Origin: Clostridium sp.
GTDB lineage: Bacteria > Bacillota > Clostridia > Lachnospirales > Lachnospiraceae
NCBI GenBank assembly: GCA_031275405.1
Contig: JAISOV010000047.1
Location: forward strand, 1 to 64,000
Direction of reading: 5' to 3'
DNA: 64,000 nt
This document shows, in pieces, positions 1,817 through 44,729 of the stretch. The notes under the pieces were generated by a model. The model worked only from the letters and a program-made list of their open reading frames with translations. It was not told where the DNA came from and did not search any database. The position numbers were made by a program, and so were the translations under genes. The stretch's first letter is position 1. Each line of letters starts with the position of its first letter.

Positions 1817-2671
1817 TTAATGCGTCTCTTCCATGGAAGGTATTTTTTTCATGGAAGGTATCTTTTCCATTTGTTCCGCCCGGCGTTTCCGGATCCCGTC
1901 CAGAATGATCTGCTTCTTTTCCGGGATCTTCTCTTTGTCCATAGGCGGAACGCCTTTCAGGCGATAGGGGATCCCAAGCTTCTCATACTTGCCCTCGCCC
2001 ATCGTGTGGTAGGGAAGGACGTCCAAGGCTTTCAGGTTGTGAAACTGCCCGATGAAATACCCCAGTTGGAACAAGGATTCCTCATCGTCCGTGAAGCCTG
2101 GAACCACGACATGGCGGATCCACATATCCACCTGCTTCTGATCCAGATAGGCGGCAAACTCCAGGATATGCCCATTGGGCTGTGAAGTCAGCTCCAGATG
2201 TTTCTCCGGGTCGATGTGCTTGATGTCCAGCATGACCAGATCGGTCAACGCCATCAGCCGGTCTATTTTTTCCATCAGGGTGCTGTTGGCCGGGTGGAAA
2301 GCAATGCCGGAGGTATCCAGGCAGGTATGGATCTTCTTGGCTTTTGCCAGGGCAAACAGGTCTGTCAGGAAATCCGGCTGCATGAGCGGCTCGCCTCCGG
2401 TGACGGTCAGGCCGCCGCCTTTGTAAAAGCCGAGGTTGCGCTCATACTGTTCAAGGATCTCAGCCGGCTCCATGAACGTGCCGCCGCTGAAATTCCAAGT
2501 GTCCGGATTGTGGCAGTAAGCGCACCGCATAGGACAGCCCTGGGTGAATACCACGAAACGTACGCCCGGGCCGTCCACGGTGCCGAAGCTTTCCAAGGAA
2601 TGGATTCTTCCAAGGGTTGGATTCTTCCAGTGGGATATAGTTCCTTCCTGGAATGTATTTCCTCCCTGCAT
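1817..2671 (-). CDS. pflA: Pyruvate formate-lyase activating enzyme
   Basis: Radical SAM enzyme (284 aa) that abstracts hydrogen from the PFL glycine to install the glycyl radical. The CxxxCxxC cluster motif is C46, C50 and C53 (QGCPMRCAYCHNPDTW), preceded by the family motif ESFGTVDGPGVRFVVF and followed by the SAM-binding TVTGGEP. It is the last gene of the pfl locus and starts 5 nt after the stop of the glycyl-radical-domain gene, with no good ribosome binding site of its own, so translational coupling is likely. Two oddities: about 20 residues precede the usual start region, encoded by a roughly 17-nt tandem repeat with TTCCAAGG cores, and the C-terminus is a direct repeat (KIPSMKKIPSM). 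Typical PflA is about 240-250 aa. Confidence 0.95.
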   Translation of the reverse strand: MQGGNTFQEGTISHWKNPTLGRIHSLESFGTVDGPGVRFVVFTQGCPMRCAYCHNPDTWNFSGGTFMEPAEILEQYERNLGFYKGGGLTVTGGEPLMQPDFLTDLFALAKAKKIHTCLDTSGIAFHPANSTLMEKIDRLMALTDLVMLDIKHIDPEKHLELTSQPNGHILEFAAYLDQKQVDMWIRHVVVPGFTDDEESLFQLGYFIGQFHNLKALDVLPYHTMGEGKYEKLGIPYRLKGVPPMDKEKIPEKKQIILDGIRKRRAEQMEKIPSMKKIPSMEETH

Positions 2672-2676
2672 GGCCG

Positions 2677-2919
2677 TCAGATATTCTCGTGGAAAGTGCG
2701 GGAGATCACGTCCGCCTGCTGTTCCGGCGTCAGCTTGATGAAGTTCACGGCATAACCGGATACGCGGATGGTCAGCTGGGGATAGTTCTCGGGATGCTTC
2801 TGCGCATCCAGTAAGGTATCCCTGTTCAGGACGTTCACATTCAGGTGGTGTCCGCCCTTTTCCGCATAGCCGTCCAATAAAGATACTAAGTTGTCAACTT
2901 GTGCTGTGTTCGTTGTCAT
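2677..2919 (-). CDS. Stand-alone glycyl-radical domain of pyruvate formate-lyase
   Basis: An 80-aa protein equal to the C-terminal end of PflB. It carries the radical loop [10 protein letters not shown] with the expected radical Gly55, preceded by [19 protein letters not shown] and followed by [14 protein letters not shown]. In ordinary PflB (about 760 aa) this segment is fused to the core; here it has its own ATG and an AGGAGG site 6-8 nt upstream. Core (679) plus this domain (80) gives the length of a normal PFL. E. coli GrcA (YfiD) is a known separate glycyl-radical domain, but it supplements a full-length PFL. Here I see no full-length PFL in the window, so this protein probably supplies the essential radical glycine in trans. 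It lies between the 72-aa gene and pflA. Confidence 0.93.
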
Positions 2920-2961: not shown

Positions 2962-3180
2962 TTACTGGTAGTCGTCCAGACCCTCATGAAGGGTCGGCAC
3001 GCTGCAGGCCAAGGGTGTCCGGGAGCAGTCCGAGCAGCCCATCGTCTGAATGTCTTTCGGGGGCCTCCCCGGGCGGAAGGCAACCTCCGGGGAAGTCTCC
3101 ACATTGATATGCCCGACCCCTCTGGATATGTCGGCATCCAGCATTTTTACCAGGTCGTCAATCATTGCGTGGTCGTCCAT
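2962..3180 (-). CDS. 72-aa cysteine-containing protein in the split PFL locus
   Basis: Small protein of unknown function with a strong GAGGAGGG site 5-6 nt before its ATG, lying between the PFL core and the glycyl-radical domain on the same strand. Residues 6-27 (MIDDLVKMLDADISRGVGHINV) resemble residues 8-29 of the radical-domain protein ([22 protein letters not shown]), so it looks like a paralogue of that domain's front half. The radical loop RVSGY is absent. Instead the second half has C49, C52 (GCSDC) and C59 followed by SVPTLHEGLDDY. I infer a partner, chaperone or regulator of the split enzyme, perhaps metal or redox linked through the cysteines. No characterised family is recognised. 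Confidence 0.85.
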   Translation of the reverse strand: MDDHAMIDDLVKMLDADISRGVGHINVETSPEVAFRPGRPPKDIQTMGCSDCSRTPLACSVPTLHEGLDDYQ

Positions 3181-3286
3181 GGTACCCTCCTCGCTATCTT
3201 AGCAGTTTGGCCTACGCGCAAAATCAGCTTCGTGAGATCCTCCTGTCAGGCAGTCAGCTTCGCGGGATCTTTTTGCCGGGCCGCCG

Positions 3287-5326
3287 TCAGCTGTTCAGGT
3301 CGAGTTCAATATCGCCCGCGAATACTTTGTCTTCCTTGCCGAGCGCGCCGGGGATGACGGTAAAGGTATTGGAAATGCCGTCCTGCGCGTCGTTGAAAGG
3401 CAGTTTTGCCACGGAAGCAAGGGAAGCTACCGCGCCGCGAGTATCGCGTCCGTGCATGGGGTTCGCGCCCGGCGCGAAAGGCTGGCCCTTCTTGCGGCCG
3501 TCCGGGGTGTTTCCGGTCGCTTTGCCATACGTCACGTTGGAAGTGATGGTAAGGATGGAAGTGGTGGGAACACCCTCGCGGTAGGTGTGGTGCCTCCTTA
3601 CGGCAGTCATGAACCTGTGTACGATCTCCTGCGCAATGGAGTCTACGCGGTCGTCATCATTTCCATATTTAGGGAAATCCCCGGTGGTCTTGAAGTCCAC
3701 GATGATACCGTCGTCATCTCTGATGGCTTCCACTTTGGCGTACCGGATCGCGGACAGGGAATCCGCCACGATGGAAAGCCCGGCGATACCGGTGGCAAAA
3801 TAGCGTTTCACGTCTCTGTCGTGGAGAGCCATCTCCGCCCTTTCGTAACAGTACTTATCGTGCATATAGTGAATGACGTTCAGGGTGTTCACATAGACGT
3901 CCGCCTGCCATTCGATCATATCCAGGAATTTCTGCATGACATCGTCGTACTCCAGCACATCCCCTTCCACTTTGCGGTATCTTGGCCCGATCTGCTTCTT
4001 GGAAACTTCGTCCACGCCGCCGTTTAAGGCATACAGCAGGCATTTTGCCAGGTTGGCGCGAGCGCCGAAGAACTGCATTTCCTTGCCGATGACCATGGAG
4101 GACACGCAGCAGGCAATGCCGTAATCATCGCCGTGGGTCACTCTCATAAGATCGTCGTTCTCATACTGGATAGAGGAAGTCTGGATGGACATCTTCGCGC
4201 AGTATTTTTTCCAGTTTTCAGGCAACCTTACCGACCACAGCACGGTCAGGTTCGGCTCCGGGGAAGGGCCTAAGTTGGTCAGCGTGTGCAGATAGCGGAA
4301 GCTCATCCGCGTCACCATGTGGCGTCCATCAATGCCCACGCCGCCTAAGGACTCCGTAACCCATACCGGATCACCCGCGAAAATCTGGTTGTATTCCGGG
4401 GTACGGGCAAATTTGATCAGCCGCAGCTTCATAATAAAATGGTCTATGAACTCCTGGATCTGGTTCTCGGTGAAAGTTCCGTTTGCCAGGTCGCGCTGCG
4501 CGTAAACATCCAAGAACGTGGAAGTACGCCCAAGGCTCATGGCAGCGCCGTTCTGCTCTTTCACCGCGCAGAGATAGCCGAAATAGGTGGCCTGGATCGC
4601 TTCCTGCACGTTCGTGGAAGGCTTAGAAATATCACAGCCATAGGAAGCCGCCATCTGTTTCATTAATTTCAGGGCGACGATCTGCTCGGAAAGCTCTTCC
4701 CGCAGCCGGATCACGTCATCGGTCATGATACGCCCGGTGGAATCTTTCTGGGCCAGTTTATCTTCGATCAGCCTGTCGATACCGTATAGGGCGATACGCC
4801 GGTAGTCTCCGATGATGCGCCCGCGCCCGTAAGCGTCCGGAAGCCCGGTGATGATGTGGGAAGAACGGCAGGCTCTCATGTCCGCGTTGTAAGCGTCGAA
4901 GCAGCCCGCGTTGTGCGTCTTGCGGTGGGTGGAGAAAAATTCGCTGATCTCCGGATCCACTTCGTAGCCGTTGTCAGAGCAGGCTTTTTCCGCCATGCGG
5001 ATGCCGCCGTAAGGCTGTAAGGCGCGTTTGAAAGGCTTGTCGGTCTGAAAGCCTACGATTTTCTCCTTCGATTTGTCCAGATACCCCGGCCCGTGGGAAG
5101 TAATGGTAGAAACCACTTTCGTGTCCATGTCCAGGACGCCGCCCGCCTCCCGTTCCTGTTTCTGTAAATCAAGTACCTGCTCCCATAAATCTTTTGTATC
5201 CTGGGTAGGCCCGGCCAGAAAAGAATCATCGCCCTCGTATGGCTGATAATTTTTCTGGATGAAGTCGCGGACATTGACTTCATTTTCCCATTTGCCCCCT
5301 ACAAAATCCGTCCACTCTGCTCTCAT
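3287..5326 (-). CDS. pflB: Pyruvate formate-lyase catalytic core lacking the glycyl-radical domain
   Basis: Converts pyruvate and CoA to acetyl-CoA and formate. The 679-aa protein has the whole PFL barrel, including the adjacent catalytic cysteines (GIACCVSSM, residues 406-407) and the conserved [19 protein letters not shown] region. It ends at [17 protein letters not shown], just where other PFLs continue into the glycine loop. The stop is followed by 106 nt and then two small genes, the second of which encodes the missing domain. The start at 5326 is set by an AGGAGG site 8 nt upstream; an earlier in-frame ATG at 5365 lacks one. The conserved body shows no sign of decay, so the split appears functional. 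A consensus sigma70 promoter lies about 90 nt upstream. Confidence 0.95.
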
Positions 5327-5415
5327 CTGCAATTGCCTCCTGTCTGAATCGGAAAAACGGAACATTAATAGTGACTGGTATGGCTGGAATCCTGCGATTT
5401 TTCGTTTCTTAGTAC

Positions 5416-5914: not shown

Positions 5915-6197
5915 CTAACCGGCATGTCTGCATGTGGGCATATGAGTATTTTGCACAGACCGCGGGGATAGTATGCGCCAAGTTATCATCCCAGCCCTTG
6001 CTGGATATGCCAGGTGCAATCTGTGCGCATATCGTACAGCTTTGCGGAATGTGTTCAGCTGTCTTTGTTGAGCAGCGGCTGCCGTCTGGCCGGCTCTGCC
6101 AAACAGTAACGGTTAAGCTTGAGGGGTATAGGGAAACATGATACGGTAAGCCCGCAGGCTGCGGGATATGCCGATACGGCAGAAAGGAGAAAAGGTC

Positions 6198-6413
6198 ATG
6201 AGCGAAGCTGTGAAGGAAAATACGAGGCAGGTCTCCAAAGAAATGACGATAGGAGACCTCCTGCGTTCCGACCCGGAGGCGGCGGAAGTGCTGCTGGAAG
6301 CCGGAATGCATTGTCTTGGCTGCCCTTCCGCGCAAGGCGAATCTTTGGAAGAAGCGGCTATGGTGCATGGAATCGACATTGATGCTTTGATGGAAGCAAT
6401 CGAGGCAAGGTAA
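6198..6413 (+). CDS. DUF1858 domain protein
   Basis: A 71-aa cytoplasmic protein. The domain core [45 protein letters not shown] is typical of DUF1858, with a CxxC pair (HCLGCP). Family members are often found beside redox or iron-sulfur genes, but their biochemical role is not established. The start is set by an AGAAAGGAG site about 7 nt before the ATG; an in-frame ATG 30 nt upstream has none. It follows the repeat-rich gap and ends before a bidirectional terminator, so it is probably monocistronic. Confidence 0.88.
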
Positions 6414-42449: not shown

Positions 42450-44729
42450 ATGAGTAATTTCACAGAAAACGAGAACATGGAACTGGACGACAGCAAGGAG
42501 CTGCATGGAAACGCGCAGTGGAGTGACACTGCGGAACCGGAAGAAGTCGAAGAACCGGAGGAATCCCAAGAATGGGAGGGCGCCGAAGAACCGGAGACTG
42601 CCGACGAACTAAGCGCAACCGAAAGATGGGGGGACGCCGAAGAAGCGGACGAGACGAGAAGAAGGCCGGAGAGCCAGGAAGCGGGCGAGACGAGAAGAAG
42701 GCCGGAGAGCCAGGAAGCGGGCGAGACGAGAAGAAGGCCGGAGAGCCAGGAAGCGGGCGAGGCGAGAAGAAGGCCGGAGAGCCAGGAAGCGGACGAGGCG
42801 AGAAGAAGGCCGGAGATTCAAGAATCAGACGACGGCGGGGAACTGGATCTGGAGGAACTGCTGGATCCTAGGGTGCTGCGCGCCATCCAGGAGATGGGTT
42901 TTGAAAAAATGACGCCGATCCAGGAAAGCGCGATCCCAGCTCTGCTGAACGGCAGGGACATCATTGGACAGGCACAGACCGGTACAGGGAAAACGGCGGC
43001 TTTCGGGATTCCGATGATCCAGATGGTAGATCCGCAGCTGCGCAGGTTACAGGCGATCATCCTGTGTCCTACCAGAGAACTCGCTATACAGGCGTCGGCG
43101 GAACTGCGCAATATCGCGAAGTATATGGAGGGCATTAAGATCCTTCCCGTCTATGGCGGGCAGGAGATCAGTCGGCAGATCAGCGGACTGAGAGGGGCGC
43201 AGATTGTCGTGGGAACCCCCGGGCGCGTGATGGATCATATGCGCCGTCACACCTTAAAGCTTGACGACATCAGCATGGTTGTTCTGGATGAAGCGGATGA
43301 AATGCTGAACATGGGCTTCCTGGAGGATATGGAACTGATCTTAGGCGAGATCACACAGGAACATCAGACGGCTCTTTTTTCCGCGACCATGCCTAGGCCC
43401 ATTCTGAATATTACAGGGAAATTCCAGAAAGACGCCAAGATGATCAAGGTGACGCCGGAAGAGCTGACGATTCCTCTGGTATCCCAGCGGTATTACCGGA
43501 TTAAGAACAAAGACAAGGACGCGGCCTGTATCCGACTGCTGGATTATTATCAGCCTAAACTGTGCCTGATCTTCTGCAACACCAAGATGAAAGTGGATGA
43601 ACTGGCGGAAAGCCTGAAAAAAGCGGGTTTTCACGCGGAGGCTCTGCACGGCGATATGTCTCAGCACATGAGAGACGCCGCGATGAACCGCTTCCGTAAC
43701 GGCGTCACCAATATCCTGATCGCCACGGATGTGGCGGCAAGGGGAATCGACGTCTATGACGTGGAAGCCGTCATCAACTATGATATTCCGCAGGATATAG
43801 AGTATTACGTACACCGTATCGGCAGGACAGGCCGCGCGGGCAGGACAGGCCGTTCTTTCACCTTTGTCAGCGGCAGGGAAATATACCGGGTGCGCGACAT
43901 CGAGAGATTCTGCCGTACGACGATCGAAGAAAAAAGAATGCCCGGCGCTTCCAAGGTCATGAGGGCGAAAGCCGAAAAACTGCTGGATCAGGTCTGGGAA
44001 CTGCGTCAGGATGCGGACATGGAACTGATGAAGAAATATCTTTCCCGCAAACTAGAGGCGGAAGACTGTGACGCGATGGAACTGGCGGCGGCGCTGCTGA
44101 AGCATTATGTGGGCAACGTGGGAGAAGAAATCGAAGTCGATGATTTTGAAACAAAACGTTTCGGACGGGGAAGAGACAGCCGGGGAGGACGCGGCGACGG
44201 TTTCGGAAGCCGCCGTAGCGGTCGCCGGGATCCCCGTTCGGGTCGCGAGGACAGGGGTTTCGGAAGCCGCCGTGAGGACAGGGGTTTCGGAAGCCGCCGC
44301 GAGGACAGGGGTTTCGGAGACCGCCGCGAGGACGGTTTTGAGGGCCGCCGCGAGGACAGAGGTTTCGGAGACCGCCGCGAGGACAGAGGTTTCGGAGACC
44401 GTCGCGAGGACAGAGGTTTTGGAGACCGCCGCGAGGACAGAGGTTTCGGAAGCCGCCGCGAGGACGGTTTTGAGGGCCGCCGCGAGGACGGCTTTGGGGG
44501 TACGCGCCGTGAGGATGGCTACAGAAGCGCAAGGCGTGAGGACGGTCTTGGGAGCGCGCGCCGGAATGATGATCTGGGAGGCCGCCGGGATTCCGGTTCA
44601 AGCCGTGAGGATGGTTTTGGAAGCCGCAGACGCGACGACCGGGAAACCAAGAGACCTTTCAGCCATGAGGAACGCGGCAGGGAAGAAAGAGGACGCAGGT
44701 CGATTCCGTTTCCTCTGAAGAAGAAATGA
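42450..44729 (+). CDS. DEAD-box RNA helicase with repetitive N- and C-terminal extensions
   Basis: ATP-dependent RNA helicase of the CshA/DeaD type (759 aa), for ribosome assembly and mRNA turnover. The core runs from about residue 135 to 510: AQTGTGKT (motif I), [18 protein letters not shown] (II), FSATMP (III), and the second RecA domain with [18 protein letters not shown] and [13 protein letters not shown] (VI). The acidic N-terminus holds five 12-aa repeats ([12 protein letters not shown]), and the last 180 residues are Arg/Gly/Asp/Phe repeats (EDRGFGSRR), the kind of tail that binds RNA non-specifically. AAAGGA lies 12 nt before ATG 42450; an ATG 12 nt earlier is too close to it. Confidence 0.94.
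42651..42830 (+). repeat. Five 36-bp in-frame tandem repeats in the helicase gene
   Basis: Each unit encodes E(T/A)RRRPESQEA(G/D); the first copies are nearly identical and the last diverges (PEIQESD). Copy number is likely to vary by slippage. Confidence 0.9.
44247..44560 (+). repeat. 27-bp (and 24-bp) in-frame repeats in the helicase tail
   Basis: About nine EDRGFG(S/D)RR units mixed with shorter EDGFEGRR units, decaying towards the 3' end. Confidence 0.9.

Follow-up and report, generated by a model that had tools for sequence, protein, structure and literature searches.

In split pyruvate formate-lyase (PFL), a conserved cysteine (Cys) tail comes either from a small separate protein, here called x, or from the PFL core itself, which is a new result and both the strongest and the least expected one of this analysis. 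PFL is one of the chief enzymes by which gut anaerobes turn pyruvate into acetyl-CoA and formate. Oxygen destroys its glycyl radical, and many gut bacteria make this oxygen-sensitive enzyme in separate pieces. Work on how obligate anaerobes cope with oxygen has dealt chiefly with repair through spare parts. In split PFL, the finding that a conserved Cys tail sits either on the core or on a separate radical-domain mimic suggests a so far unrecognised step in how this enzyme is handled, and it provides exact residues as targets for mutation. The window, meaning the whole analysed stretch of 64,000 nucleotides from a Clostridium sp. of the family Lachnospiraceae, carries a split PFL locus in which x is a protein of its own.

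The split PFL locus

The locus lies on the minus strand in the order core (3287..5365), x (2962..3180), radical domain (2677..2919) and activase (1817..2671). The core of 692 aa matches TIGR01255 with 1084 bits over model positions 2-665 of 744 and has no radical domain of its own, the match stopping at position 665 and the gene at 3287. Core residues 14-682 were aligned to residues 7-681 of 1h16, which places the end of the core near residue 681 of E. coli PFL, followed by a short Cys-free tail. The alignment to solved PFL chains also identifies the active-site Cys-Cys pair of the core (IACCVSSM, aa 419-420, 4106..4111 on the minus strand), equivalent to C418/C419 of E. coli, the role of which in PFL is described elsewhere (PMC12338860). 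Two of the solved PFL chains, 38la_A and 38lb_A with 687 and 739 residues, have no radical-domain match and are possibly split or truncated enzymes themselves.

The radical domain adjoining the core is a free-standing 80-aa protein of the GrcA3 type with the RVSGY loop at aa 52-56 and a score of 163 bits against NF038360 (cut-off 158). The NCBI name “autonomous cofactor” implies a spare part. However, a second full Gly_radical match was not found in the host genome (84% complete), in which the 80-aa protein holds the only complete glycyl radical loop of its kind, so that it seems to be the normal radical subunit of the split enzyme instead. We therefore correct the reading implied by the name: with no second radical domain turning up for the core, the protein appears to be an ordinary subunit, provisionally in view of the completeness of the genome. 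Additional lone radical-domain genes with no core nearby were observed at four loci (L159, L160, L161, L162) in genomes equipped with the split operon as well, and these are possible true spare parts. The activase PflA, the PFL-activating radical SAM enzyme of 284 aa, was assigned with 292 bits against TIGR02493 (cut-off 231.75).

The gene of x spans 2962..3180 on the minus strand including the stop codon, encodes 72 aa from an ATG start and has the ribosome-binding site AGGAGG at 3186..3191 (minus strand), a few nucleotides upstream of the ATG as read from the sequence, which bears out the open reading frame proposed in a first-pass annotation made from the letters alone, where no strand had been given. 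The usual length of x is about 66-67 aa, and the copy in the window is longer by about five residues, which lie in a variable linker. No Pfam family was matched and NCBIfam has no model of its own for x. Against Pfam Gly_radical (PF01228) no match exceeded the gathering score, the best among 44 members having an E-value of 0.01, and the GrcA3 model NF038360 gave 14.4 bits over residues 5-28 only, which does not reach its curated cut-off of 158. Likewise, a search of solved structures with the x profile found no relative, and the openly licensed literature on split PFL, small Cys-bearing partners and deactivases contained no description of x. The earlier statement that no protein like this has been described thus agrees with these sources, and x is a probable accessory protein of split PFL that neither the openly licensed literature nor Pfam nor NCBIfam describes.

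A radical-domain-like front half and a Cys tail

The front half of x (aa 1-29, 3094..3180, minus strand) consists of a helix and a GxGHxNVxV strand, the homologues of which lie at the front of the radical domain. This had been proposed at first sight from a comparison of the two neighbouring proteins, and it is now supported by single-sequence BLASTP (E-value 2e-5), by profile-profile comparison with hhalign (probability 96.4%, E-value 1.2e-9 over 32 columns) and by the GrcA3 model, which touches 39 of 44 x family members at E-values up to 0.1, with a best value of 1.3e-6. The paralogy is therefore partial and covers about the first 30 residues. Mapped to 1h16 via the radical domain, the half corresponds to approximately residues 683-709 of E. 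coli PFL, the region with strand beta10, which in repaired E. coli PFL is supplied to the barrel in trans by YfiD (PMC8683613). Among 100 aligned x sequences, G23 is conserved in all, D15 in 99, and H24 and N26 in 98 each. The RVSGY loop and the C-terminal helix are absent from x and from all 100 aligned homologues, so a glycyl radical cannot be carried by x, and its identification as a Gly-variant radical enzyme was rejected on account of the missing loop.

In place of the loop, x has a Cys tail (aa 44-70, IQTMGCSDCSRTPLACSVPTLHEGLDD, 2971..3051, minus strand), which is supported by its conservation, its dN/dS of 0.048 and a motif that also occurs at the ends of x-less cores. Its three cysteines, C49 (3034-3036), C52 (3025-3027) and C59 (3004-3006, in C59-x-V-P-T), are as the first-pass annotation described them, and their conservation in the 100 aligned sequences is high for C52 and C59 (97 each), P62 (97) and T63 (95) and lower for C49 (73). 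Three cysteines are found in 67 of these proteins, two in 30 and four in 3. Three x proteins end before C59; the short x of L139, L140 and L141 stop just after C52 (GCTDCAK, GCTTCSQ), and their cores are Cys-free.

In all 166 radical domains measured, the strand Asn and the radical Gly are 28 residues apart, and from the strand Asn to C59 the spacing is also 28 residues in 46 of 97 x members and 27-29 in 79 of them, although this value is not rigid in the family and amounts to 33 residues in the window's x. Since the modal spacing equals that of the radical domain, C59 could sit at the place of the radical Gly, which is suggestive only.

Exchange of the Cys tail between x and the core

When the gap between core and radical domain was inspected in loci without x, the cores were seen to end differently from those of x-containing loci, and a second batch of x-less loci was fetched as a test. 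Altogether, 44 of 45 x-less split cores end in an extended tail with two or three Cys, compared with 0 of 97 x-containing cores (Fisher's test 4e-36, a value that ignores shared ancestry). The part after GALGK has a median length of 34 aa in x-less and of 15 aa in x-containing cores. The exception is L281, an x-less split core that is also without the Cys tail. A profile of the x tail scored at least 5 bits on 25 of the 45 x-less core tails and on none of 900 shuffled tails, with a best score of 33 bits for L297, the core of which ends in CGDMACKVPTLHKGIDD. The x-less core tails (L144-L158, L270-L300) form two subtypes, ACxIPN(L) and DCACCEPN, and the divergent ones, such as DCACCEPN, are equated with the x tail by position and cysteines only. 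Only two Cys are held by 27 of the 44 Cys-bearing core tails, and solved structures searched with the core-type tail contained no relative.

Since the x-less relatives hold the Cys tail covalently on the core C-terminus, x gives in trans what they hold in cis. In a core tree of 138 core bodies, which was built with a quick method and has many weak branches, about 15 switches between cis and trans were counted, at least four of which are forced by well-supported branches. Such an exchange of a separate protein with a core extension suggests a single job for both at the core, with the Cys tail as their common working part. The core tails have no radical-domain-like half, which makes it more likely that the Cys tail is the working part and that the front half is a docking handle. 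For the same reason, the core tails do not demonstrate that x uses the radical-domain site.

Two intact PFLs, L302 and L303 (G120, G416; 774 and 786 aa as open frames), contain an insert with Cys where the core passes into the radical domain, which may represent an intermediate or a re-fusion. The intact PFLs L301 and L304 have no such insert.

Family, distribution and selection

A first search for x found it in 13 of 61 relatives. Within the host family, the profile search that had been suggested for the 72-aa sequence, once run, matched strongly in 100 of the 397 genomes sampled, which makes x a conserved family. A class-wide sample of 391 Clostridia genomes contained 10 strong matches, mostly from the host's own family or order, and none was obtained outside the class Clostridia in a profile search of a 299-genome phylum sample. 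Relatives are encoded in at least 408 stretches of named genomes, mostly Lachnospiraceae and including Acetatifactor muris DSM 23669.

As to whether x is always next to split pfl genes, core, x and radical domain follow each other on one strand in 94 of the 100 x loci, with the activase next in most of them. Of the six stand-alone copies, five are in genomes with a PFL core elsewhere (683-714 aa frame), and the sixth genome, in which no PFL was found, is 67% complete. A PFL-independent role of x was considered and rejected, as the stand-alone copies still co-occur with a PFL core. Among the stand-alone genes at L104, L128, L097 and L107, where the split core is located elsewhere in the genome, x lies near proline biosynthesis genes (proB-like) in two genomes and beside a MoxR-type ATPase-like gene in one genus, as judged by eye from the sequence.

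Purifying selection on x is strong. The overall dN/dS is 0.087, compared with 0.065 for the radical domain, and by region it is 0.092 for the docking half, 0.46 for the linker and lowest, at 0.048, for the Cys tail, the pairs not being independent. A chance open reading frame is rejected by the overall value together with the relatives in named genomes, and the reading of x as a pseudogene was likewise considered and rejected. Neither homologues widespread without any PFL nor a random pattern of codon substitution, both named in the first-pass annotation as outcomes contrary to its reading, appeared. Its interpretation is supported in part, namely for the partial paralogy, the cysteines in place of the radical loop and the tight linkage to split PFL, while the occupation of the radical-domain site as a placeholder is a proposal.

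Proposed role of x and alternative explanations

In all probability x is a partner of the split PFL core, and it is very likely that it is functionally equivalent to the cis tail of the core. As far as can be judged from sequence, we somewhat favour an accessory subunit whose radical-domain-like half serves for docking and whose thiol tail is thereby brought to the core. The first 30 or so residues copy the helix and the beta10-type strand that build the radical domain into the core barrel, and they would probably dock x on the core, so that the front half is most simply seen as a docking handle borrowed from that domain. After oxygen cleavage of E. coli PFL, the Gly-less segment 696-733 that remains is required for YfiD binding and activation (PMC8683613), and since the split core ends near residue 681 and therefore lacks this segment, a trans-acting occupant of that site is plausible. 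AlphaFold predictions on read-through chains of core and x (15 rows) and of core, x and radical domain (9 rows) had a pLDDT of 33, too low to be usable.

The working part would be the conserved tail with C52, C59 and usually C49 and the motif AC-x-V-P-T, most likely guarding the entrance of the active site with its thiols for as long as the radical domain is not in place, be it prior to assembly, in the course of activation by PflA or following cleavage by oxygen. Such a tail would cover the barrel until the radical domain docks, and its thiols might pair up with the active-site cysteines of the core, reduce them or supply a hydrogen atom. We infer docking, site and chemistry, and the guard chemistry in particular is put forward tentatively, at less than even confidence. 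More speculative still is the idea of a thiol module in split PFL that is not known from other glycyl radical enzymes, taking the form either of a Gly-less radical-domain mimic in which a Cys reaches as far as the radical Gly does, or of a core extension. This module might switch the enzyme reversibly from a radical-free state that is safe from oxygen to the active one and back. If true, this module would be a built-in protection, in contrast to the after-damage repair known from YfiD.

As one of several possible modes, x could also be a placeholder or chaperone of the barrel, which lends strand beta10 to the core and keeps it folded and safe from proteases until it is displaced by the radical domain, the cysteines being secondary; in trans, it would do the job of residues 696-733 in oxygen-cleaved E. 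coli PFL. That just the helix and the strand are what x retains of the radical domain fits this mode, as do the findings that cleaved E. coli PFL is highly prone to proteolysis and that a cut at residue 695 makes YfiD binding too weak to measure and lowers activation 32-fold (PMC8683613), the split core stopping even earlier. Nevertheless, we regard it as unlikely, because x-less split cores have no beta10-like element and yet work with a bare Cys tail, because selection is strongest on the tail and not on the docking half, and because the E. coli core cut at 695 was reported to be properly folded once activated (PMC8683613). Somewhat less likely again is a radical quencher or deactivase, the tail thiols of which would give a hydrogen atom to the glycyl radical at rising oxygen and thereby spare the chain from cleavage. 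For this mode, x offers two near-invariant thiols, a modal spacing that would place C59 at the position of the radical Gly, and constant company of a radical-bearing partner; in the 44 x-less species, however, the thiol tail is permanently fused to the core and would have to be held off the radical during turnover.

A metal- or Fe-S-binding small subunit comparable to BssB/BssC of benzylsuccinate synthase (BSS) or HpdC of hydroxyphenylacetate decarboxylase is suggested by the occurrence of a small Cys-bearing protein in the operon of a glycyl radical enzyme, with three Cys in 67 of 100 members, but is very improbable given that the two Cys of 30 of 100 x proteins and of 27 of 44 core tails are too few for a four-Cys cluster and that no such family was matched in sequence. 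Finally, the partial paralogy with the neighbouring radical domain might be taken to mean that x is a functionless remnant or by-product of radical-domain duplication. This can practically be dismissed in view of the low dN/dS, the presence of x across deep branches of the core tree and the matching core tail that replaces a lost x.

Comparison with known systems

The accessory subunit proposed here can be compared with several known proteins. The autonomous glycyl radical cofactors GrcA3, YfiD-GrcA and T4 Y06I (NF038360, TIGR04365; PDB 6OWR) are, like x, small, free-standing and built on the C-terminal segment of PFL, and they have the helix and the GHxNV strand in common with x, which differs in that it has the Cys tail instead of the RVSGY loop and the C-terminal helix. 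Residues 696-733 of oxygen-cleaved E. coli PFL, like x, bear beta10 and lack the Gly, and they lie at the radical-domain site (PMC8683613), which is also the putative site of x; the E. coli segment, however, is a damage product in cis, whereas x has a gene of its own and a conserved Cys tail.

The beta and gamma subunits of BSS and HpdC resemble x as small Cys-bearing partners encoded within the operon of the enzyme, and BSS beta regulates thiyl radical formation (PMC12590467). Unlike x, with its two or three conserved Cys and a front derived from the radical domain, they bind [4Fe-4S] clusters in a HiPIP-like fold, and the four Cys ligands of such a cluster are available in only 3 of 100 x proteins. 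The aminoacyl radical enzymes with Ala, Ser or Thr for Gly depart, like x, from the canonical radical Gly, but they still have the radical loop, with the entire domain on a single chain, whereas x is without the loop (PMC11528403).

Other features of the window

Upstream of the pfl operon, a small open reading frame at 6168-6413 on the plus strand encodes 81 aa and is, as judged by eye, of the DUF1858 type with a CxxC motif. Tandem repeats of in-frame length are present at 42642-42816 and 44244-44543, with units of 36 bp and 27 bp.
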